A stretch of 64,000 nt of DNA, taken from NCBI RefSeq assembly GCF_000223215.1, contig NC_017243.1, positions 682,001-746,000 on the forward strand. The letters run 5' to 3'. Shown here piece by piece: positions 1,990 through 55,044 of the stretch. The translations under genes and the position numbers were made by a program. This stretch comes from Brachyspira intermedia PWS/A. Lineage in GTDB: Bacteria; Spirochaetota; Brachyspiria; Brachyspirales; Brachyspiraceae. Position 1 is the first letter of the stretch, and each line of letters begins with the position of its first letter. The notes below the pieces were generated by a model, which saw nothing but the letters and a program-made list of their open reading frames with translations, ran no database searches and had not been told where the DNA came from.

Positions 1990-3045
1990 TTGAAGATATT
2001 TAATTTTTTTTATATATTACTATTTGTTTTTTATTCAAATATTTTATTTTCTCAGCAGCCCCAAGTGTCGCTTGTACATTTTTATATGTGTAATGGAAAT
2101 ATCGGCGATTCGAAAATAACTATGTATTTTAATATAATGGATGGAACAAATGTATTTGGAAGATATCATTATAACAATATAAATCAATTCATAGATATAA
2201 GAGGGCATATTAACGGGAATAAATTATATATTGAAGAAAAAGTTAATAACCGTATAACAGGATATTTTAATGGAATAGTTTCTAATGATTTATTTTTTTC
2301 AGGAGAATGGGTATCCAAAGATGGAGAAAATAAATATGATTTTTCATTTTATAGAGATGAATCTTATCCTGTACATACTATGGATATAGTAAATTCATGG
2401 TTAAAGCTTGAGTTGGATAATGGAAAAAAATTTGAATCAACTAAAGATGCTGTCATAATAAGAAATGAAAAAAATCTTAATAATTTAGATAGAATTTCTT
2501 TAGATGTTGATGGAATAAAATCATTAAATACAAATAGAATTGCATATATATTAAATAATGCCATTATTGATGAATATAATGTTTGGACAAAGTCATCGCA
2601 AAATAATGAGGATTTTCATCTTATTAAAGAAATAAATGTTGCTTATTTAGATGAGAATATAATATCATTTACAATATATAATTATTCTTATACAGGCGGA
2701 ACGCATGGTATATATAATGTTGTGCCTGCTATATATTTAATTTCAACAGGTGAAAGGATAGGGTTGAGTTTATCAGAGCTAATAGAAAATAAAAATGATA
2801 GAGAATTAATTAATTTGATGAGAAGTAAATTACTTAGGAATTTTACAGAAAAAGATTTTTTTGATTTTTATTCTATTGAGCTTAGTGAAATTTATGATGT
2901 AACTCCAGCAGGTATATCATTTTATTGGCCTTTATATAAAATTGCTGATTATGCTCATGGTGTTATAGAAATTGAATTTACATATTTAGAGCTTAAGCCT
3001 TTTATTAAAAAGGATTCTAAATTTTGGTATTTGTTTAATAAATAA
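1990..3045 (+). CDS. Secreted DUF3298-like protein
   Basis: A 351-residue exported protein. Translation starts at TTG 1990, since the nearby ATG at 1985 is closed at once by a stop; an AAAAGAG site sits about nine bases upstream. Residues 1-21 form a hydrophobic signal peptide ending FSQQ. The middle is beta-rich. The C-terminal third (YSYTGGTHGIYN, then a Leu-rich helix ending in LRNF) resembles the DUF3298/RsiV-type domain found in periplasmic proteins such as PdaC. No catalytic residues are evident. It is followed closely by nth but is likely functionally unrelated. Confidence 0.65.
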   Translation: MKIFNFFYILLFVFYSNILFSQQPQVSLVHFYMCNGNIGDSKITMYFNIMDGTNVFGRYHYNNINQFIDIRGHINGNKLYIEEKVNNRITGYFNGIVSNDLFFSGEWVSKDGENKYDFSFYRDESYPVHTMDIVNSWLKLELDNGKKFESTKDAVIIRNEKNLNNLDRISLDVDGIKSLNTNRIAYILNNAIIDEYNVWTKSSQNNEDFHLIKEINVAYLDENIISFTIYNYSYTGGTHGIYNVVPAIYLISTGERIGLSLSELIENKNDRELINLMRSKLLRNFTEKDFFDFYSIELSEIYDVTPAGISFYWPLYKIADYAHGVIEIEFTYLELKPFIKKDSKFWYLFNK

Positions 3046-42232: not shown

Positions 42233-42943
42233 TCACTTTTTTATATATTTTTTGGCATTCTCTAAAATTTCAGCTATATCATCATAACCTTTTGATTTTG
42301 CTATATCTAAAGCAGTTATATTTCTAGCATCTTTAAAGTTAATGTCAGCACCCTTAGAAATTAAAAGCTTTACAATTTCTGCATTATTTTTCTGTACTGC
42401 ATACATTAAAGGCGTTTGATATTGATAATCCATTGAATTTACATCAGCACCATTTTTTAATAAGAATTCTACAGATTCCAAATTATTAAAAATTAAAGCA
42501 TGCATTAAGGCATTAATCCCATAAGCATCTTTAGTATTAATATCAACATAATCCATTAGTTCCTTTATTTTTTCAATATTTCCTTTTTCAGCAGCTTTAA
42601 AAAATCTATCTTTGGCCAATGCTCTGTCTAAAGAGTTAGGCACTTCTTTATCTTTTTTTATAATTTTTACATTATTTGCATATTTAATATAATTAGCAAA
42701 TGTAAATATAAAACTAAATGATAATATAGATATAAATACTATAATAAATACTTTGTAATTCTTTTTAAAAATCAGCATAATAGAGTTTATTATTATAAGT
42801 AAGGCAATTATATTCGTTATATAAAATAAATTTTTTCTATTATAAAATATCATCATTAAAAAAGAAGATGCTATAATATTAACAGATATAACAATTAAAA
42901 TAATAGCGAATATATTTATTATAGTTTTTAATCTCTTACTCAT
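42233..42943 (-). CDS. Membrane protein with C-terminal ankyrin repeats
   Basis: A 236-residue protein. Three membrane helices occupy about 9-31, 41-58 and 66-86. Residues about 115-230 carry three or four ankyrin repeats (DAYGINALMHALIFNNLESVEFLLKNGADVN; YQTPLMYAVQKNNAEIVKLLISKGADIN; NITALDIAKSKGYDDIAEIL). It is 24 bp downstream of the first paralogue at 42968-44047, so cotranscribed. The paralogue at 50305-52179 carries its own ankyrin domain. Together this suggests an ankyrin protein works with this family. Confidence 0.8.
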   Translation of the reverse strand: MSKRLKTIINIFAIILIVISVNIIASSFLMMIFYNRKNLFYITNIIALLIIINSIMLIFKKNYKVFIIVFISILSFSFIFTFANYIKYANNVKIIKKDKEVPNSLDRALAKDRFFKAAEKGNIEKIKELMDYVDINTKDAYGINALMHALIFNNLESVEFLLKNGADVNSMDYQYQTPLMYAVQKNNAEIVKLLISKGADINFKDARNITALDIAKSKGYDDIAEILENAKKYIKK

Positions 42944-42967: not shown

Positions 42968-44047
42968 TCAATTAAATAAATAAGCCAGATAATGATCATT
43001 ATTTACATACTCTTTTATATTCTTATTATCAATAAATATCTTTTCGTATCCTTTTTCCTTCATTATTATAATAAATGAATCTGTTACTCCAAAAATTAAA
43101 TTATCTATATTTGAATAAAAATCACTAGGAGCATTACATTCTTTTAGTAATTTTTCAGCATCATTTACTAAATCTTTTAAATATGAGGTAACTAATTTTT
43201 GACTATTCAAATCATAAATAAGAAAAACATTATTTATTGTAATTTCTTTACTATCTTCTATTTTTATGAGTTTTTTGTATATACAAATAGTTTTTTCATC
43301 AAAGTATAATATATTAAAAGCATATAAATCTTTAATTTTAATAAAATATTTTCTTAATTCATAAACAGGAAATTTTTTCAAAAATGAATTAATTTCATCT
43401 GAAAGTTCATTTTCTTTTTTATACTGAAAATCTTTTGAAAAACTAGATTCGCCATTAATATCAAAATTTATTTTTTCTTTATTGTCTATAAATGCATAAT
43501 AAAAATTGAATAAATAACTAAGAATTACGCTTAATTCTCCATATTTTTTTAAATATCCAAATTTGTATATATTAAATTTTTTTATATTTATTTTAGGCTC
43601 ATTTATTAATTCAAAAACTCCTTCTATTTTTTTGGAATTAATCTCCATAGCATATTCAGCTTTTGAAATACTAGAATTATTTAAATTTATCTCTGCAATA
43701 TTTTTTATCTTAGATCTTATAAATTCATCTTCAGTATAATAATCAAAAACTTCTATTTTACTGCTGTTTCCTCTAATTTCATAAATACCAAATAAATCTG
43801 AATTATTTATAAAAATTTTTCCTCTATACAAATAATGTATACCCTCATCAATATTTTCAAATTTATTGCAGTAAATGTATATATTATTAATCTTATCTTT
43901 AAGTATTATAAAAGTTGTATCCTTTATTTCAAAATAAGGACGGTATTTATTTTTCATTAATAATTTAAAAATAATAACTACAATAATAATAGAAATAATC
44001 AAAACAAAATATTCGTTATAGAAAATACTATATAATAATTCTTTCAT
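42968..44047 (-). CDS. Membrane-anchored family protein (paralogue 1)
   Basis: A 359-residue protein of the unrecognised family found five times in 42968-52179. One N-terminal membrane helix (about 12-32) is followed by a positive KLLMKNKYR, so the rest should be cytoplasmic. Conserved blocks: FIILKDKINNIYIYCN at about 45; KKIEGVFELINEPKINIKKF; IDNKEKINFDINGESSFS; FNILYFDEKTICIYKKL; then SQKLVTSYLKDLVNDAEKLL and DFYSNIDNLIFGVTDSFIII at the C-terminus, ending HYLAYLFN. Its last 110 residues are nearly identical to paralogue 2. No catalytic motif was recognised. Confidence 0.7.
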   Translation of the reverse strand: MKELLYSIFYNEYFVLIISIIIVVIIFKLLMKNKYRPYFEIKDTTFIILKDKINNIYIYCNKFENIDEGIHYLYRGKIFINNSDLFGIYEIRGNSSKIEVFDYYTEDEFIRSKIKNIAEINLNNSSISKAEYAMEINSKKIEGVFELINEPKINIKKFNIYKFGYLKKYGELSVILSYLFNFYYAFIDNKEKINFDINGESSFSKDFQYKKENELSDEINSFLKKFPVYELRKYFIKIKDLYAFNILYFDEKTICIYKKLIKIEDSKEITINNVFLIYDLNSQKLVTSYLKDLVNDAEKLLKECNAPSDFYSNIDNLIFGVTDSFIIIMKEKGYEKIFIDNKNIKEYVNNDHYLAYLFN

Positions 44048-44137
44048 AGTTTTTATTTAACTCCAAAAATTATAATTTAATGGTCAATTAATACAAATAG
44101 TAAAAATTAAGAAACTAAAAATTTTTAAATACAAAAA

Positions 44138-45421
44138 TCAATTAAACAAATAAGCCAAATAATGCTCCTTATTTATATAGTCTTTTATATTATTATTATC
44201 AATAAATATTTTTCCGTATCCTTTTTCTTTCATTATTATAATAAATGAATCAGTTACACCAAAAATTAAATTATCTATATTAGAATAAAAATCACTAGTG
44301 GCATTATATTTCTTTAATAATGCTTCAGTATCATTGACTAAGTCTTTAAGATAAGGACTTATTAATTTTTGACTGCTTAACTCAAATGTCATAAACATAT
44401 TATTTACTTCAGCAATCTGCAAATCTTCTAGCTTTGAAACTCTTTTATATAAAGATATTGTTTTATCATCATAGTATAATATATTAAAACTTTTAAACTC
44501 TTTAAGTTCATTATAATAATCAGCATAATTATCAATATAATTTAATATACTTTCATCCATTAATGATTTCCAATGTCTGTTTTTAGACTCTTTTACATAA
44601 GATGCAACTATATCTTTATTTTCATTTATTTTATTTTTCAAAAACTCATCTGAAAACTCTCTAACTCCATTAATAGAAGAATTTATTTTTTCTTTTCCAT
44701 TTATAAAAAGATAATCAAAATTAAATACATTGAGAGAAAATATTCTCTCAGAACTGAATAAAATACTTTTATCATTATACAACCCCAATATATCTGTATT
44801 ATGTAGTCTTATTATTTCTGCTTCATCTTCTCTTATGATTTCAAAAGTTCCTTCTATTTTTACAGGCTCTCTTAAAGTTTTTTTCATATTATCACCAACA
44901 TAGTCAACAATACTGTCATAAGGTTTAAACTCAATAACATACTCAATTTTTGATTTTGATGTATCATCTAATTTTGTCTTGAATTTTATTTCAGCAAAAG
45001 TTTCAGGATCATATCCATAAGATTTATTACCATCTGATGAGTGTTTATTAATTAAAATTGGATTATCTTTATCATAATAATTATCAACTCCTATTCTTTC
45101 GGATGAAAAGTAAACATCATTTATAATAAACCCATTATCATTATTTATATATACCCTTCCTAAATATGGAAACACATTATCTTTAGGCAAGTATAAATCA
45201 TTATAATTATCATTTTTCTTGTGTTCATAAACATAAACATATATATTGTTAACTTTATCTTTAAGCATGAAAAAATTATTTTTATAAAATCTTACCGGGT
45301 TTTTCTTAGCCTTATTTTTAGGTATATTAATAATTATTATGACAGCGGCTACTAAAATCACTACTGCTAACAAAATTATTATATCTTTATCTATAAATGA
45401 TTTACCTATTAAATTTTTCAT
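44138..45421 (-). CDS. Membrane-anchored family protein (paralogue 2)
   Basis: A 427-residue paralogue. A membrane helix at about 14-34 is followed by the basic KNKAKKNPVRFYKNN. Conserved blocks appear in order: FFMLKDKVNNIYVYVY, KSKIEYVIEFK, KIEGTFEIIREDEAEI, INGKEKINSSINGVREFSDE, FNILYYDDKTISLYKR, and DLVNDTEALLKKYN, DFYSNIDNLIFGVTD. The leader GCAATAATAAGGAG matches those of paralogues 3 and 4, so the upstream DNA was duplicated too. An outward-facing promoter-like end of repeat E1 lies about 110 bp upstream of its start. Confidence 0.7.
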   Translation of the reverse strand: MKNLIGKSFIDKDIIILLAVVILVAAVIIIINIPKNKAKKNPVRFYKNNFFMLKDKVNNIYVYVYEHKKNDNYNDLYLPKDNVFPYLGRVYINNDNGFIINDVYFSSERIGVDNYYDKDNPILINKHSSDGNKSYGYDPETFAEIKFKTKLDDTSKSKIEYVIEFKPYDSIVDYVGDNMKKTLREPVKIEGTFEIIREDEAEIIRLHNTDILGLYNDKSILFSSERIFSLNVFNFDYLFINGKEKINSSINGVREFSDEFLKNKINENKDIVASYVKESKNRHWKSLMDESILNYIDNYADYYNELKEFKSFNILYYDDKTISLYKRVSKLEDLQIAEVNNMFMTFELSSQKLISPYLKDLVNDTEALLKKYNATSDFYSNIDNLIFGVTDSFIIIMKEKGYGKIFIDNNNIKDYINKEHYLAYLFN

Positions 45422-45727
45422 TGTTTTAACGTTCTCCTTATTATTGCTAATAAAAATTATAATACACTTAATAAAGTGTTCTTAAGATTCGTAAATCATA
45501 ATTTTTATATTTATTCTTATACAAATAAGTATATACTAAAAATTTTTAACTTTGTCAATTTTTATGTTGTTCTTTTTCCCGCCGCATACGCTCTGTGGGC
45601 TTCGCAGGGCTAGTCCCCACAAATAATAAAACAATTTTTGACCAAATATAGTTGTTTAGCTATATATTCAAATTTTATGCTTTACAGTATACCCTCCATA
45701 TTATATAAAAATTAATTATAAAAACAA
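45422..45727. other. Intergenic region holding element E1
   Basis: 306 bp. 45422-45529 is the A/T-rich leader of paralogue 2. E1 fills 45530-45666. 45667-45727 is A/T-rich spacer before the paralogue 3 stop. Confidence 0.6.
45530..45666. repeat. MITE-like element E1 (137 bp)
   Basis: Left end A: TATATA, 17 bp, TGTCAA, which on the minus strand is TTGACA-N17-TATATA facing paralogue 2. Right end B: TTGACC-N17-TATATA facing right. Inside are CCCGCCGCA near A and GGGCTAGTCCCC near B, shared with E3 and E4. Confidence 0.7.
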
Positions 45728-47146
45728 TTATTGCCTATCAAAAAAATTAAATAAAGAATGACTTCTATTTAAATAATTTTTTAAATCATTTGATGAAATA
45801 AATATTCTACTTGCAATTTTTTCATTTGTATTTTCTAAATCATAATCCTCATCGCTAAGAATTAGGTTTGTATATTCAGGCATTACTATAATTCCTGTAT
45901 CTGTTAAAAGAAATATTAAATCATCTATATTGTCATAAAAATAATCAGGAACTACATATTTAGATAATAATTCTTTACTATCAACAACTAAATCTCTTAA
46001 ATAAGAGTTTATACTTTTTTCTCCGCTCAATTCAAATATAAAAGAATGATTCTTTACTGCAGCTTCATCTCTTCTTTCGTCTGCTTCTACAGTTCTTTTA
46101 TATATACATATTAATTCATCATCATAGTATAATATATCAAAGCATCTAAAGTCTTTAAGTTTCTTATAATATATAATACCAATTTTATCAGCATAATAGG
46201 CTTTGTTTTGGTCATAATGATGGAATTTTTCTATAATAACTTCTTTATTATTAAATTCTTTTTCAAGTTCTCTTCCTTTTTCTTCTTTAAAATTTTCATC
46301 AAAATAATAAGCTTTGCTGATAGCTGAATTTATTTTTTCTTTGCCTCTAATAAAAGGATAATTGAAATTAAATAGATAATTAGTAAGCATTTTTCTTACT
46401 TCATCCATACCAAGGTAAGCTGAATATTTATCATTAGTAAAAGTAGTTTGTTCTACTGGGATATAAAACTCTCTTATTTCCATTTCAGGTTTTCTAATAA
46501 CTTCAAAAACTCCTTCTACTTTTCCTCCTTTTATATCCATAGTATATTCAATTTCTGATGTTCTTTCATAATCGAATTCGCTTTTGAATTTTATCTTTAA
46601 TAAAATTTCTCTAATTTCTTTTTTCGAACTCCATTTATTAAATTTAATTGATTCTTTCCATGACGTTTCATAAGGAAGATATGATTTAAATTGCTTTTCC
46701 TTTAGTCTTTCAAAATAATCCATATCATAATCACGGTAAACATTAATTTCATTATTATTTAATTCATTAGTTTCACGAATCATTAATTTATTTTCGCTGT
46801 TTATAAACATTTGCCCTGTAAAAGAAGCAAAATATTCATGTGCGAAATTATCAAATTTTACTTTAATTAAATACTTTATTTTACCGCGATGTTTTCTGTA
46901 CCATTCATCATAATCATTATCTTTATATTTATAGCAATTAATATATATATTATTTATTCTATCTTTCAGCATAAAAAAACTTTTTTCATATACCAATATT
47001 TTATTTTCAGCATACCATTTTTTTGCTCTCTTCTCAAGTATAAAAATTACAGCTAGCAAAATTGCAGGTACTCCAAAAATAATAGGCCAGAAATAGTCAC
47101 TAATAATAAAAATTCTTAATGGTTCCAATATACCAAATGATATCAT
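45728..47146 (-). CDS. Membrane-anchored family protein (paralogue 3)
   Basis: A 472-residue paralogue, close in length and sequence to paralogue 4. One membrane helix at about 20-42, then KRAKKWYAENK. It has an inserted segment in the N-terminal domain (HEYFASFTGQMFINSENKL; WSSKKEIREILLK). Conserved blocks include SFFMLKDRINNIYINCYKY, YPFIRGKEKINSAISKAYYF, FDILYYDDELICIYKR, LRDLVVDSKELLSKY and DNIDDLIFLLTDTGIIVMPE. An AATAGGAG leader matches that of paralogue 4. Confidence 0.7.
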   Translation of the reverse strand: MISFGILEPLRIFIISDYFWPIIFGVPAILLAVIFILEKRAKKWYAENKILVYEKSFFMLKDRINNIYINCYKYKDNDYDEWYRKHRGKIKYLIKVKFDNFAHEYFASFTGQMFINSENKLMIRETNELNNNEINVYRDYDMDYFERLKEKQFKSYLPYETSWKESIKFNKWSSKKEIREILLKIKFKSEFDYERTSEIEYTMDIKGGKVEGVFEVIRKPEMEIREFYIPVEQTTFTNDKYSAYLGMDEVRKMLTNYLFNFNYPFIRGKEKINSAISKAYYFDENFKEEKGRELEKEFNNKEVIIEKFHHYDQNKAYYADKIGIIYYKKLKDFRCFDILYYDDELICIYKRTVEADERRDEAAVKNHSFIFELSGEKSINSYLRDLVVDSKELLSKYVVPDYFYDNIDDLIFLLTDTGIIVMPEYTNLILSDEDYDLENTNEKIASRIFISSNDLKNYLNRSHSLFNFFDRQ

Positions 47147-47563
47147 AAATAGCTCCTATTGTTGTTAATAAAAATTATTGGCTAATAGTATCTAGCCGTC
47201 TTTTGGAATTTACTAGATGCTTAAAATTTTTATATTTAGCTTTCTAATATTTAAAAATTATAATTTATTATTGCTATGTTCGCCCACACGAAGTGTGCCT
47301 ACTTGGTTCGCCATGTATAAGCTAGTGAGTATACTTACTGCTATGTGTGACTGCGACAATGTGTTATACTACATTTAAGATATATTCTATACATATAGAG
47401 TTAAAGTACTTGCGTTTTCGCGAAGCGTGCCGACGAAGTCCACATGCGGTGTCGGCAGCAACTTTGGCGAAGCCCGCAGAGCGTGTGCGACAAAAAAGTT
47501 AATGATATATCTATAAAAATATAGAAATTTACAAAAATAATTGTTTCAGTATATAAAAATTAA
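47147..47563. other. Intergenic region between paralogues 3 and 4, repeats
   Basis: 417 bp. 47263-47325 holds a CGCCCACACGAAGTGTGCC hairpin module also seen at 49095 and 49270. 47413-47500 is a G/C-richer module (GCGAAGCGTGC, GGCGAAGCCCGC, GTGTGCGACAAAAAAGT) shared with 62629-62694. 47528-47555 is a worn promoter-like end (TTTACA-N16-TATATA). Confidence 0.6.
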
Positions 47564-48988
47564 TTATCTCCTACTAAAAAAATTAAATAAATAATGACTT
47601 TTATTTAGATAATTTTTTAAATGCTCTGTAGGTATAAATATTCTTTCTGCAATTTCTTCATATTCATCTGCAGAGTCATTAATATCTAGATCAGGATATT
47701 CAGGCATTACTATAATTCCTGTATCTGTTAAAAGAAATATTAATTTCCTCATATTATTATAAAAATTATCAGTAAGTTCATAATTAGATAATAACTCTTT
47801 ACTATCAACAACTAAATCTCTTAAATAAGAACTTATACTTCTTTCACTATCCAATTCAAATATAAGAGAATTATTCTTTACTATAGCTTCTTTATTTCCT
47901 GCATCTGCTTCTATAGTTCTTTTGTATACGCATATTACTTCATCATCATAGTATGATATATCAAGGCATCTAAAGTCTTTAAATTTCCTATAATATATAA
48001 GACCAATATCATCTAAAGGACAGAATATATCAAAAAGAGCATTTTTATGGTTCAATTTCTCTTCAAGTTCTTTTCCTTTTTCTTGTTTGAATCTTTCATC
48101 AAAATTATAAGCTCCGCTGATAGCCATATTTATTTTTTCTTTTCCTCTAATAAAAGGATAATTGAAATTAAATAAATAATTAGTAAGCATTTTCTTTGTT
48201 TCATCAACTCCCAAACCATCATATTTGTAAGACAGTTGATCAGGAAAACTCATCTGTTCAATTGGAATATAAAATTGTTTTACTTCTATTTCAGGCTTTC
48301 TAATAACTTCAAAAACTCCTTCTATTCTTTTATTTTCAATATCCATTGTATATTCAATTTTAGATGTTCTTTCATAATCTAATTCTTTTCTGAATGTTAT
48401 AGTTGTAAGTTTATCTCTTACATCTTCTTTTGAATACCAACCCTCAAATTTAGGTTTATCATTTGGATTAAATTCATAATATTGAAAAGGGGTTTCTATT
48501 TTGTATTGTCTGTAATATAAATCCTTAAAATATTTTTTGTCATAATCATGGTAAACTACCATTTCATCTATGTATAATTTACTAGCTTCACGAATAATTA
48601 ATTCATAGCCGTTATTTATAAATATTTGACTTGGGAAACGGTCAAAATATTCATTTGCAAAACCGTCAAATTGTCTTTTTCGTTCATCTTCTGCCCAATT
48701 GTTGCTTAATGTTAGTATATCCTCCATTTTAGAATGGTGATCGTTAAACCATTTGGCATAAGCATTATCTTTATATCTATAGCAATTAATATATATATTA
48801 TTTATTTTATCTTTAAGCATAAAGAAATCTTTTCCATCTACTATTATTTTATTTTGAGAATACCATTTCTTGGAACGCCTCTTTATATACATAAAAATAA
48901 TATAAAAAATAATAATAAAAACTAAACCTATAATAAACTTCGTATTTTCATTTTGATTCAATAGAAAATCAAATATATTATCTATCAT
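47564..48988 (-). CDS. Membrane-anchored family protein (paralogue 4)
   Basis: A 474-residue paralogue very similar to paralogue 3 along its full length. The membrane helix at about 17-35 is followed by KRRSKKWYSQNK. Conserved blocks: FFMLKDKINNIYINCYRY, SKIEYTMDIENKRIEGVFEV, YPFIRGKEKINMAISGAYNF, LDISYYDDEVICVYKR and NMRKLIFLLTDTGIIVMPE. AATAGGAG lies before the ATG. Its upstream DNA begins with the 176-bp tandem repeat, suggesting local duplication. Confidence 0.7.
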   Translation of the reverse strand: MIDNIFDFLLNQNENTKFIIGLVFIIIFYIIFMYIKRRSKKWYSQNKIIVDGKDFFMLKDKINNIYINCYRYKDNAYAKWFNDHHSKMEDILTLSNNWAEDERKRQFDGFANEYFDRFPSQIFINNGYELIIREASKLYIDEMVVYHDYDKKYFKDLYYRQYKIETPFQYYEFNPNDKPKFEGWYSKEDVRDKLTTITFRKELDYERTSKIEYTMDIENKRIEGVFEVIRKPEIEVKQFYIPIEQMSFPDQLSYKYDGLGVDETKKMLTNYLFNFNYPFIRGKEKINMAISGAYNFDERFKQEKGKELEEKLNHKNALFDIFCPLDDIGLIYYRKFKDFRCLDISYYDDEVICVYKRTIEADAGNKEAIVKNNSLIFELDSERSISSYLRDLVVDSKELLSNYELTDNFYNNMRKLIFLLTDTGIIVMPEYPDLDINDSADEYEEIAERIFIPTEHLKNYLNKSHYLFNFFSRR

Positions 48989-49002
48989 AATAAACTCCTA
49001 TT

Positions 49003-49354
49003 GTTGCTAGCAATAAACTCGCTCAATATTAGCTGGCAACTAAAGTTGCCAGCTGCTCGTTTATCGCTTTAAAAATTATTTTTTCTTGTTATGTTCGCCC
49101 ACATGAAGTGTGCCTACTCAGTTCGCCTAAAGGTTTGACTTAATAAATTAAGTCAAAGGCTTCAGCTCACTTGTTTTAGTTGCTAGCAATAAACTCGCTC
49201 AATATTAGCTGGCAACTAAAGTTAAGAGCTGCTTGTTTATTGCTTTAAAAATTATTTTTTGTTGTTATGTTCGCCCACATGAAGTGTGCCTACTCGGTTC
49301 GACATATAATAACCTACTTGGTGGCTTCGGCTCACTTATTTTTGTTATACTAGC
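49003..49354. repeat. Tandem duplication, 176-bp unit
   Basis: GTTGCTAGCAATAAACTCGC starts at 49003 and again at 49179. Both units continue with the R repeat, TTCGCCCACATGAAGTGTGC, then divergent tails. Unit 1 contains an 11-bp perfect stem, TTTGACTTAAT/ATTAAGTCAAA (49134-49157). Confidence 0.8.
49006..49077 (+). repeat. R repeat, best copy
   Basis: A 72-bp imperfect palindrome. GCAATAAACTCGC and GCTCGTTTATCGC flank a perfect 11-bp stem AGCTGGCAACT (49031-49041) and AGTTGCCAGCT (49044-49054). A T-rich end follows. Other copies: 49182-49253, 28362-28432 (reverse) and 22087-22128. Confidence 0.75.
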
Positions 49355-49395
49355 TTTTTAAGATTAAATATAAATCCATTATTAAAAAACTAATA

Positions 49396-49466
49396 AAGTG
49401 AATAAAATTTTAAAATACGATTTTTTTACAAGCTCTTATCGTATCTAATTATAATTTTATTCACTT
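49396..49466 (-). terminator. Structured terminator of the lipoprotein gene
   Basis: A 14-bp stem AAGTGAATAAAATT with AATTTTATTCACTT encloses a second stem ATACGAT/ATCGTAT. It lies just past the stop of the gene at 49473, reading the minus strand. The double stem is unlike the other simple terminators of the window. Confidence 0.6.
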
Positions 49467-49472
49467 AAGATA

Positions 49473-49919
49473 TTATTTTCCTAATTTACTAAGACTAATT
49501 GAGTTAACTTGCTGTGTTCCATTATAAACAGACATTTCAAGTCCTTCACTAGTAAATTTAAATTCTAAGTGAGCATCATTTTTAGATATAGTTTTATAAT
49601 GATTATTAGCTACTTTTGATAATTTACTATTTCCTATATCACCTTTTATAGCTCTATCGCTTTCCATTACAATATCCACGCACTTTTTCACAACTTCTAT
49701 TGTAGATTCATCATTAGGATAGTTAATTTCTATACCATCATAACCTACAATTATAAGAAACGATTTCATATATGTTTCATCAGCTGACATAAAATATTGA
49801 CCGTATAGGTCTTCAGGGATATTTGTGTTTTTTTCTGTTTTTTTAGAACATGCAGTATTAACAAATAAAAAAGTTGAAATTAATAAAAAGAATGAAAATT
49901 TTAAAATTCTACCTTTCAT
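49473..49919 (-). CDS. Lipoprotein of unknown function
   Basis: A 148-residue lipoprotein. The signal FSFFLLISTFLFVNTACSKK ends in lipobox NTAC with Cys at about 24. The mature part has acidic and beta-prone residues (LYGQYFMSADETYMKSFLII; HLEFKFTSEGLEMSVYNGTQQ). No family is recognised. It has its own consensus promoter and stands between paralogues 4 and 5, so it is probably a separate unit inside the cluster. Confidence 0.75.
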   Translation of the reverse strand: MKGRILKFSFFLLISTFLFVNTACSKKTEKNTNIPEDLYGQYFMSADETYMKSFLIIVGYDGIEINYPNDESTIEVVKKCVDIVMESDRAIKGDIGNSKLSKVANNHYKTISKNDAHLEFKFTSEGLEMSVYNGTQQVNSISLSKLGK

Positions 49920-49944
49920 ATCATATAACCTCCTATAGTAGGGT

Positions 49945-49973
49945 ATTATAAAAAAGATTTTTAATTATGTCAA
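49945..49973 (-). promoter_or_regulatory. Promoter of the lipoprotein gene
   Basis: On the minus strand, TTGACA (49968-49973), 17 bp, TATAAT (49945-49950), followed by AGGAGG about 20 bases later. All consensus. Confidence 0.85.
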
Positions 49974-50053
49974 TGAAAATTTATTTTTATATTAAAATAT
50001 TTTTTATTTATCTTCATTAAAAAATATATGTATTAAATCATACTAAAAAATAA

Positions 50054-50298
50054 TATATACCCAAACAACTATACTTTGTCAATTTTCACCTTTTTATAAA
50101 TGTAAATTATAACTTTTTATAAAATAAAAGATTATCTAATATTAAGAAATATGTTTTACATATAATATAGATTTATTGATTTTGTATAATAATAAGTAAT
50201 CAGCCGCACGTATAAAGGACATTCATTAAGAATAAGCGATACCGTGCGGGTTGCCACTACGGCTAGTAGTTGACAAACTTAAAAATTTTCAGTATATA
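50054..50298. repeat. MITE-like element E2 (245 bp)
   Basis: Left end B (reversed): TATATA, 17 bp, TGTCAA. Right end A: TTGACA-N17-TATATA, whose -10 lies seven bases from the paralogue 5 stop, facing into it. The interior AATCAGCCGCAC, GATACCGTGCGG, TAGTTGACA module is shared in reverse with 63122-63215 of E4. Confidence 0.7.
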
Positions 50299-50304
50299 TA
50301 AAAA

Positions 50305-52179
50305 TTAATCAAATAAATAAGACAAATAATGATCTTTATTAATATTATATTTTATATCATCTAAAGGGATAAATATTTTTTTATGCCCCTTATCTTTCAT
50401 TAATATGATACCGGCTTCTGTTATAAGAAAAATTAAATTGTCTGTATCATTATAAAAGTTTTTAGGAACATTATATCTTTTTAATATCTCATCAGCATTA
50501 TTAACAAAATCTTTCAAATAAGGACTTATTAATTTTTCATTATCTAAATCAATTATGAGCGATATATTATTTATTATAAGATTATTATTAGATTCTATCT
50601 TAGCAAATCTCTTATATACGCATATTGTTTTATCATCAAAATACACTATATTATCAGCATTATAAAAATCTTTAAGTTTATCATAGTATTTAGTTTTAAT
50701 ATCATTAAATAAAACCTTATCATGTTTTTTTAAAATCTTTTCTACATCTATTTTCAATTCATTTTGTTTCTGAGAATGTAGTTTATTATCTCCATTTATA
50801 TATGAATTAATTTTATCATTGTTTTTTATATTGAAATGATAGAGATCAAATAAATAGCGAAGAATATTTATCAAATGATTAGATTTTGCCATCTTTTTAA
50901 ATATTAATTTAAAATATTCTACCTTAATATCAGGATTGCTATTAACTTCAAAAACTCCATTTATAATTTTAGAATCAGATATTTCCACAATATAGTTAAT
51001 TTCCTTTTTATCACTATTTATAAAATCATAGAGAGAACAATCAAATTTTATAATGGCTTTTTCATTTCTTTCTATAATAATATCATACCAGCTAAAATAT
51101 TCTTTGTCATTTTGTTTATTATCATCAAAACAATAAATAGAAATATAATTATCCATAAAATTACTGAGTATATTATAATACCCTTTTATCTTATCATTAT
51201 TTATAAATATATTTCCAAAAAAACCCTGCATTGCAGATACTAGTCCGCCATAATAAACATAAGAGTAAATATACATATTATTTACTTTATCTTTAAAAGT
51301 TATAAACGTTATTGTCTTTTGATAAATATCAGGAATATATCTTCTTTTATATGCTTTAATAAAAATAATAATAATAGCTATAAGAATAGCTGTAAGAATT
51401 AAATATTTACCAAATACCAATTTAAAATAATATAAAAAATTATCAGTTTTAGCTCCATTTAAAACCAATATAGCAGCTATATCTTCGTTGCCTTTATCAA
51501 GTGCTATTTCAAGACCTTTGTCTAAATCCATTTTGAATTTATTTCCAAAGAATAAAAATTTCTTTTTTAATAGACTTTTTAAGATAAACTCATTTTCTTT
51601 ATTAACAGCTAATAAAAACTCATCATTTATATCATCATCGTTTTTATAATGTTTCAAGATAATTTCAACAACATCATAAGCATAATCGTCTACAGCACTG
51701 TAAAGGGCTGTTTTACCATTAATAGATTTTTGATAAACATCAGCATTATTTTCTAGTAAGAACTCTACTATATCAAGTTTGCCATTATATTTTGAATAAG
51801 TATAAAGCAAAGTATAGCCATCATATACTCCGTTTATGTCATATTTCTGTATAAACTTCTTAACAGCTTCTAAATCCCCATAACCTTCTGCAGCATTTTG
51901 ATATTCATATTCTAAACTATCTATTTCTATAACATTATATTTTTTATAAAATTCTATTTTTTCTTTTAATACTTTTTCTGCTGCCTCTTTAAACAAGTTT
52001 TCTATATATTCTTTAGGGTCTTTTGCCATTTCTTTTAATTCATCTTCATTTGTAAACATTTTATCAAAAAGATTTTTATAGTAATTGGTGTCATATTCCT
52101 GAGAATATAGAAATAAAGATGTTATTATTAAGAAAATAAAAGATATAATTATTCTGAAAATATTTTTATTTTTTAACAT
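50305..52179 (-). CDS. Ankyrin-repeat fusion of the membrane family (paralogue 5)
   Basis: A 624-residue protein. Residues 1-27 are a signal peptide (ISFIFLIITSLFLYSQEYD). Residues about 85-245 form ankyrin repeats (AVKKFIQKYDINGVYDGYTLLYTYSKYNGKLDIVEFLLENNADVY; SINGKTALYSAVDDYAYDVVEIIL), so they should be periplasmic. A membrane helix at about 253-272 is followed by KAYKRR. The family domain (about 275-624) is then cytoplasmic: ITFKDKVNNMYIYSYVY, NNDKINSYINGDNKL, VYFDDKTICVYKR, SPYLKDFVNNADEILKRY, DTDNLIFLITEAGIILM. It joins the ankyrin and family parts in one chain. Confidence 0.75.
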   Translation of the reverse strand: MLKNKNIFRIIISFIFLIITSLFLYSQEYDTNYYKNLFDKMFTNEDELKEMAKDPKEYIENLFKEAAEKVLKEKIEFYKKYNVIEIDSLEYEYQNAAEGYGDLEAVKKFIQKYDINGVYDGYTLLYTYSKYNGKLDIVEFLLENNADVYQKSINGKTALYSAVDDYAYDVVEIILKHYKNDDDINDEFLLAVNKENEFILKSLLKKKFLFFGNKFKMDLDKGLEIALDKGNEDIAAILVLNGAKTDNFLYYFKLVFGKYLILTAILIAIIIIFIKAYKRRYIPDIYQKTITFITFKDKVNNMYIYSYVYYGGLVSAMQGFFGNIFINNDKIKGYYNILSNFMDNYISIYCFDDNKQNDKEYFSWYDIIIERNEKAIIKFDCSLYDFINSDKKEINYIVEISDSKIINGVFEVNSNPDIKVEYFKLIFKKMAKSNHLINILRYLFDLYHFNIKNNDKINSYINGDNKLHSQKQNELKIDVEKILKKHDKVLFNDIKTKYYDKLKDFYNADNIVYFDDKTICVYKRFAKIESNNNLIINNISLIIDLDNEKLISPYLKDFVNNADEILKRYNVPKNFYNDTDNLIFLITEAGIILMKDKGHKKIFIPLDDIKYNINKDHYLSYLFD

Positions 52180-53986: not shown

Positions 53987-55044
53987 ATGAATTATATAGG
54001 AAGTAAACTGTCTTTATTAGATTTTTTATACGAATCTATAATGTCTGTAATAGATGATAATTGTCATACATTCTGTGATTTGTTTGCAGGTACAGGTATT
54101 GTAGGAAGATATTTTAAATCTAAAAATTTCTCGATTATAGCTAATGATATTCAGTATTATAGTTATGTTTTAAATAAGCATTATATAGAAAATAGTAAAT
54201 ATTTGTCATTTTACGATTTAAATGAAGAAATAGAAGAATTAAAAGAAACTGATATCAAAGAAAAATATATAATTGTATGCGAGTATTTGAATAATATAGA
54301 TTATCAAAAAGGTTTTATTTATAATAATTATTCTTTAGGAGGTACTAAAGATAAAGAACATAAGAGAATATACTTTTCAGATGAAAACGCCATGAAATGC
54401 GATGATATAAGAATGAAAATAGAAGAATGGCTTAATAATAAGAAGATTAATGAAAATGAATATTATTTTCTTCTTGCCAGCTTGCTTGAAAATATTGATA
54501 GATGTGCAAATACAGCTTCAGTTTATGGTGCATTTTTGAAAGATATAAAAAAACAGCTTCAAAAACTTTCAATTATTGTCCTTGCGAATTTGTTATAAGT
54601 GATATAGAGCATAAAGTATATAATGAAGATGCTAATAAATTAATAGAAGATATTGAAACCGATATATTATATTTAGACCCTCCATATAATAGAAGACAAT
54701 ATTCAGATAATTATCATATACTTGAAACTATAGCTAAATATGATAATCCTGTAATAAAAGGAAAAACAGGACTTAGAAATGATAGAATAAAATCATTATA
54801 TTGTAATAAAAATTATGTTTATAATGTATTTGAGGAGCTTATAAATAAAGCTAATGCTAAATATATATTTTTAAGTTATAATAATGAAGGTTTATTGTCA
54901 TTAGAAGATATAAAGAAAATAATGTCAAAAAAAGGAAAATACGGATTATTTGTCAAAGAATACAGCAGATTTAAAGCCGACAGCAAAAGATATAATTCCG
55001 CTTCAAAAACATGTGAGTATCTGCATTACCTCATAGTAAAATAA
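53987..55044 (+). pseudogene. D12-class adenine-specific DNA methyltransferase, interrupted by a frameshift at an A7 tract
   Basis: One methylase spread over two frames. The first part (53987-54598) opens MNYIGSKLSLLDFLYES and contains SAM motif I, CDLFAGTGIVGRYFK. The second (55044 end) contains catalytic motif IV, LYLDPPYNRRQYSDNYH, and a conserved C-terminus. The join lies at A7 (54547-54553). Adding one A, or a -1 slip there, gives one frame of 352 residues reading KDIKKTASKTFNYCPCEF. It may be a phase-variable gene, programmed frameshift (A-AAA-AAA-C resembles a slippery site), a dead gene or a sequencing error. No partner enzyme is adjacent. Confidence 0.82.

Follow-up and report, generated by a model that had tools for sequence, protein, structure and literature searches.

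RsiV is both a receptor and an inhibitor of lysozyme (PMC5014341). Its DUF4163 domain spans residues 79–162 and its DUF3298 domain residues 188–270 (PMC4183432), and most of the contacts with lysozyme are made by residues 163–171 and 255–261 (PMC5014341). The paper on the RsiV structure names 3CYG, BF2082 (3S5T) and PA4972 (4E72) as its structural relatives (PMC5014341).

Here we analyzed a cluster of five genes, P1 to P5, in Brachyspira intermedia PWS/A, the genome of which consists of a 3,304,788 bp chromosome and a 3,260 bp plasmid (PMC3163572). The assembly used here has a total of 3,308,048 bases and two contigs; the larger one, at 3,304,788 bases, agrees exactly with the published chromosome. 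The genus Brachyspira comprises intestinal spirochaetes, including pathogens of swine and poultry. We read the five genes, with a probability of roughly 0.55, as a Brachyspira-specific and strongly diverged branch of PdaC (DUF4163)/DUF3298, the shared domain of which would lie in the cytoplasm and serve as a non-enzymatic binding module. All positions refer to the window, i.e. the stretch of 64,000 nucleotides that was analyzed.

Five homologous genes and their layout

The initial annotation had described five homologous minus-strand genes between positions 42968 and 52179, and all five open reading frames are present there (Table 1). When P4 was used as the query against the whole genome, we obtained exactly the other four paralogues (E values from 5e-148 to 2e-24), and a profile of the family recovered P1 to P5 and no sixth copy. 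The five proteins are mutually homologous, far above chance.

Table 1. Positions of the paralogues, their parts and other features of the window
Feature	Position	Strand	Description
Secreted PdaC-DUF3298 protein	1990..3045	+	ordinary family member, 351 aa; canonical family reference, outside the cluster
Ankyrin membrane protein	42233..42943	-	three N-terminal helices and Ank repeats; flanks P1; in some species only
P1	42968..44047	-	359 aa; single N-terminal membrane helix (residues ~13-31) and shared PdaC/DUF3298-like domain
P2	44138..45421	-	427 aa; helix (~13-31) and shared domain; structure-predicted member (pLDDT 71.8, pTM 0.70)
P2, residues ~235-427	44141..44719	-	equivalent of PdaC + DUF3298 in RsiV-like proteins
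P3	45728..47146	-	472 aa; helix (~18-37) and shared domain, longer C-terminal insert
Leader element copy	47260..47317	-	~130 nt upstream of P3, sense strand
P4	47564..48988	-	474 aa; helix (~16-35) and shared domain; 59% identity to P3
Leader element copy	49075..49132	-	~100 nt upstream of P4, sense strand
Second leader element copy upstream of P4	49251..49308	-	176-nt spacing; duplicated unit 94% identical
Small lipoprotein	49473..49919	-	lipobox ...NTAC; syntenic cluster member; genus orthologues 76-97% identical
P5	50305..52179	-	624 aa; signal peptide, ankyrin domain, internal helix and shared domain
P5 membrane helix, residues ~254-274	51358..51420	-	KAYKRRY directly after
P5 ankyrin repeats, residues 96-180	51640..51894	-	Pfam Ank_2, E 7e-14; predicted periplasmic

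In P1 to P4 a short N-terminus is followed by one membrane helix, a stretch rich in lysine and arginine, and the shared domain. The N-terminal helix that had been ascribed to all five genes is thus found in these four, but not in P5, which begins with an apparently cleavable signal peptide (...FLYSQ, as read from the sequence) and carries its helix behind the ankyrin repeats and in front of the shared domain.

The conserved sequence blocks that had been quoted for the family are real but looser than written, with fewer invariant positions across 39 sequences. The residues invariant in this set were K-D-x-x-N-N-x-Y, I-N of 'GKEKIN', I-x-Y-x-D, Y-K and D of 'YLxDLV'; in the numbering of P2, the residues E194, N247, D318, K326, N341 and D360 are invariant besides K-D-x-x-N-N-x-Y. 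The invariant residues include no histidine or cysteine and no recognizable catalytic set, suggesting that the domain is not an enzyme.

Placement of the shared domain in the PdaC/DUF3298 superfamily

The shared domain is unannotated in every library that we searched. Scans of the single proteins against Pfam, NCBIfam, PHROGs and PADLOC returned no family for it, a profile of the paralogues had no match by sequence in the PDB, viral contigs held no family match, and there was no significant match among the BFVD structures; at the sequence level, the initial annotation was right not to place the proteins in a known family. A Pfam search with 35 members gave no family for the shared domain either, and neither PdaC (PF13739) nor DUF3298 (PF11738) was listed at E values up to 10. 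Weak matches such as LPD18 and Terminase_2 were rejected, being below the cut-off and confined to a few members.

The initial annotation had called the fold unknown. The results of structure prediction and of profile–profile comparison, two routes that are independent of each other, do not support this and lead to the PdaC/DUF3298 (RsiV-like) superfamily. An AlphaFold2 model of P2, built from 39 family members, was compared by Foldseek with 350,542 PDB chains, and its best matches were chains of this superfamily: ranks 1 to 6 were taken by 3cyg, 5jen (RsiV, twice), 3s5t, 4e72 and 3cyg again, with an E value of 1.4e-3 and a probability of 0.99 for 5jen. Apart from RsiV itself, these structures are exactly the ones named as relatives of RsiV, yet their TM-scores on the target are low (0.34–0.40) and the P2 model itself is only moderate, so the match of structures would not settle the fold by itself; the two-layer arrangement of PdaC and DUF3298 was recovered at the superfamily level only. 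The model of P5 was poor (pTM 0.48), its sole standout being a weak match to 3cyg (E 0.15, probability 0.72), and it was set aside as an unreliable query.

For the second route, the paralogues were aligned by hhalign with a canonical profile made from the ordinary PdaC-DUF3298 proteins of Brachyspira, from which the paralogues were left out. The merged canonical profile gave a score of 50.0 with an E value of 5.6e-6 and a probability of 85.6 in local and 92.5 in global mode, and the alignment ran in register and reached the C-terminus. As controls, 100 column shuffles scored 15.0 ± 2.1 with a maximum of 22.5, and nine unrelated families of neighbouring genes scored at most 20. Against each canonical subfamily singly the scores were much weaker (21 and 31), so that the comparison is decisive only with the merged profile and the kinship must be remote. 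The canonical profile itself matched 3cyg (E 4e-14) and 3s5t (E 7e-11) in the PDB by sequence.

It could be argued that the likeness is a convergent one between small alpha + beta domains and that the family has a truly new fold, as would agree with the low TM-scores, the moderate model and the lack of any match by single sequence. We consider this quite unlikely, since the six top Foldseek matches all belong to one superfamily and the independent profile comparison lies far above both the shuffled and the unrelated controls. The results show a remote, fold-level kinship of the paralogues to PdaC/DUF3298. None of the 35 paralogues reaches the gathering cut-off of PF13739 or PF11738; they are relatives of the fold, and neither members of the families as defined by Pfam nor orthologues of RsiV.

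Predicted membrane topology and the hallmark motifs

The proteins had been annotated as membrane-anchored with a cytoplasmic domain, and the charges flanking the helix predict the same. Across 66 distinct members, lysines and arginines together averaged 4.3 in the 15-residue stretch behind the helix and 1.4 in the one in front of it, and the stretch behind had the higher number in 55 of the 66. Stretches such as KRRSKKW, EKRAKKW and KNKYRP lie directly behind the helix, and the N-termini of P1, P3 and P4 are acidic or neutral. By the positive-inside rule, the shared domain is predicted to be cytoplasmic and the N-terminus to be outside. In the P5 class the charge contrast is weak, with about equal flanks in most sequences; the succession of signal peptide, ankyrin repeats and helix would nevertheless place the ankyrin domain outside and the shared domain inside, independently of the charges.

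Judging from the flanking charges, each paralogue would be held in the inner membrane by a single helix and have its domain on the cytoplasmic side, an orientation opposite to that of RsiV and of the ordinary PdaC-DUF3298 proteins, which are secreted or lipoproteins. We know of no DUF3298 protein located in the cytoplasm. The inverted topology, if true, would clearly exemplify the re-use of a secreted binding domain across the membrane.

Of 33 canonical sequences, 30 carry the motifs YTGGxHG and YxIxxYAxG, whereas both motifs are absent from each of the 35 paralogues. By position, as derived from the domain boundaries, the two missing sites would correspond to the loops 163–171 and 255–261 by which RsiV contacts lysozyme. 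Since both of these loops are gone, the partner would be something other than lysozyme gripped in the way that RsiV does it.

These data also bear on a reading that puts the shared domain in the periplasm, as in RsiV and MliC-type proteins, and takes the cluster for an enlarged group of proteins that are anchored in the envelope and inhibit or sense muramidases (host lysozyme, or enzymes of competitors or phages). Such a role would suit the fold kinship to a lysozyme receptor and inhibitor (PMC5014341) and the fact that, in Brachyspira, the canonical relatives are either secreted proteins or lipoproteins. It is hard to reconcile with the basic stretch behind the helix and the acidic or neutral N-termini, with the signal peptide and ankyrin domain that precede the helix in P5, and with the absence of both contact loops, and we regard it as unlikely.

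Distribution, history and selection

The family was present in 22 of the 26 genomes of the genus, and a comparison of gene numbers, as the initial annotation had proposed, gave 0 to 8 matches per genome. No credible match to the family was found in about 270 other spirochaete genomes, and when 84,980 species genomes were scanned, Brachyspira loci alone were retrieved (B. innocens, B. alvinipulli, B. hampsonii, remnants in B. pilosicoli, and metagenome bins). Two marginal matches outside the genus were rejected: one (E 0.0016) was a 50-residue stretch containing two stops, and the other (E 0.0026) an unrelated frame that reads by eye like a glycoside hydrolase.

The order of the locus is conserved, with a DUF2271 gene, P5, the lipoprotein, P4, P3, P2 and P1, and rpmA-rplU beyond; among the genomes there are extra, lost, broken and relocated copies of the paralogues. 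Recent local duplication, the origin first proposed for the close pairs, is at odds with these data: orthologues of each position occur genus-wide and the members group by position in a maximum-likelihood tree, which indicates duplications that predate the species, and synteny agrees. The duplications thus appear to be old. The similarity between P1 and P2 lies mainly in the last ~90 codons (82% of nucleotides identical, versus 58% upstream), and in another clade the 3' end of P1 is not P2-like (70%), so that the likeness of the two genes is best read as the trace of an old gene-conversion event rather than of a recent duplication.

The P4 genes of B. alvinipulli (locus L044, 9508–10935) and B. 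intermedia (47564–48988) are 97% identical in DNA sequence, as against 84% for the N-terminal part of P3, which suggests that P4 has recombined or been transferred between the two species.

Two genomes served for comparison, and with the nearer one the orthologues gave dN/dS values of 0.26–0.47; the paralogues are constrained, if less so than the neighbouring DUF2271 gene (0.03). Purifying selection maintains them in some species, and in others they decay.

An array of tandem paralogues that varies in number, decays frequently and carries an apparently non-enzymatic binding fold might be a multi-gene immunity cluster, in which membrane-anchored binding proteins act against toxins or bacteriocins of neighbours; ankyrin proteins, too, occur among immunity proteins. 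We find this explanation very unlikely, as no toxin gene was recognized in the syntenic neighbourhood, the shared domain has no PADLOC match, and the orthologues are 86–94% conserved in the nearer comparison species, under purifying and not diversifying selection.

Neighbouring genes and a leader element

The lipoprotein reported among the paralogues is real. It is duplicated in several species (loci L039, 8988–9830; L041, 8106–8948; L048, 7173–8015), with the second copy 31–33% identical. The ankyrin membrane gene is likewise present, but it flanks the cluster and does not interrupt the paralogues as had been described; P5 and this gene are the only ones in the locus with ankyrin repeats. A DNA methyltransferase-like gene on the plus strand (53987–55044) consists of two overlapping reading frames, and since its halves are in one frame in several relatives, it looks frameshifted in this strain.

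The interleaved repeats noted earlier proved to be copies of a short element of 49 nt with the consensus GGCGAACCAAGTAGGCACACTTCGTGTGGGCGAACATAACAATAATA. It lies on the sense strand, 19–372 nt upstream of a start codon of the family, in every inspected cluster and in at least 10 Brachyspira genomes, and its core occurs in this genome only within this cluster. Rfam gave no RNA family in the region, and no covarying structure was found for the element. It may be a leader of the family mRNAs.

Proposed role

To our knowledge, the characterized activity of the PdaC/DUF3298 fold is binding, namely of RsiV to lysozyme. The shared domain of the paralogues would accordingly be a non-enzymatic, membrane-tethered binding module. 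The predicted periplasmic ankyrin domain of P5, a protein-binding module, could couple a partner in the envelope to the cytoplasmic binding domain. The tandem paralogues all run in one direction, their order is conserved, and their products may work jointly at the membrane. A wider proposal would be that an RsiV-type extracytoplasmic fold was inverted in one genus, giving a tandem set of cytoplasmic domains with one member wired to a periplasmic ankyrin receptor, and that this set forms a new genus-specific system of trans-membrane sensing or sequestration with its own conserved leader element; we hold this to be rather doubtful.

In most species of Brachyspira, the paralogues are maintained by purifying selection. 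The assignment of an RsiV/PdaC fold makes a cluster that was labelled unknown testable as to its topology, its ligand and the envelope sensing of its ankyrin member.

Comparison with known systems

The B. subtilis anti-sigma factor RsiV (5jen) resembles the paralogues in having one membrane helix followed by a domain of the PdaC (DUF4163) + DUF3298 type. The paralogues differ from it in lacking an N-terminal sigma-binding region (the N-termini before the helix are short in P1 to P4), in their opposite membrane orientation as predicted from the charge distribution, in the absence of both lysozyme-contact loops, in an extra N-terminal beta-rich part of ~190 residues, and in their tandem arrangement. 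No sigma gene that could correspond to the sigV partner was found among the neighbours of the cluster.

PdaC, the peptidoglycan deacetylase of Bacillus with an N-terminal DUF4163, has the DUF4163 fold in common with the paralogues through the family, whereas its deacetylase domain is absent from them. The uncharacterized DUF3298 proteins 3cyg (Fervidobacterium nodosum) and 3s5t (BF2082) are among the best structural matches of the paralogues and are matched by sequence by the canonical Brachyspira relatives; unlike the paralogues, they have kept the YTGGxHG and YxIxPYAxG motifs, and no ankyrin domain is known to us in either.

The canonical PdaC-DUF3298 proteins, about three dispersed copies per Brachyspira genome and above the PF11738 cut-off, differ from the paralogues in having a signal peptide or lipobox and both hallmark motifs. 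The copy outside the cluster in this window also has an N-terminal beta-rich extension. The likeness of the canonical proteins to the paralogues lies in the profile–profile homology and, by eye, in similar C-terminal ends (...LKPFIKKDSKFWYLF and ...IKDYINKEHYLAYLF) and similar N-terminal strand motifs (FYxxKGNIGxxxIxMYLY and FFMLKDKVNNIYIYCY).
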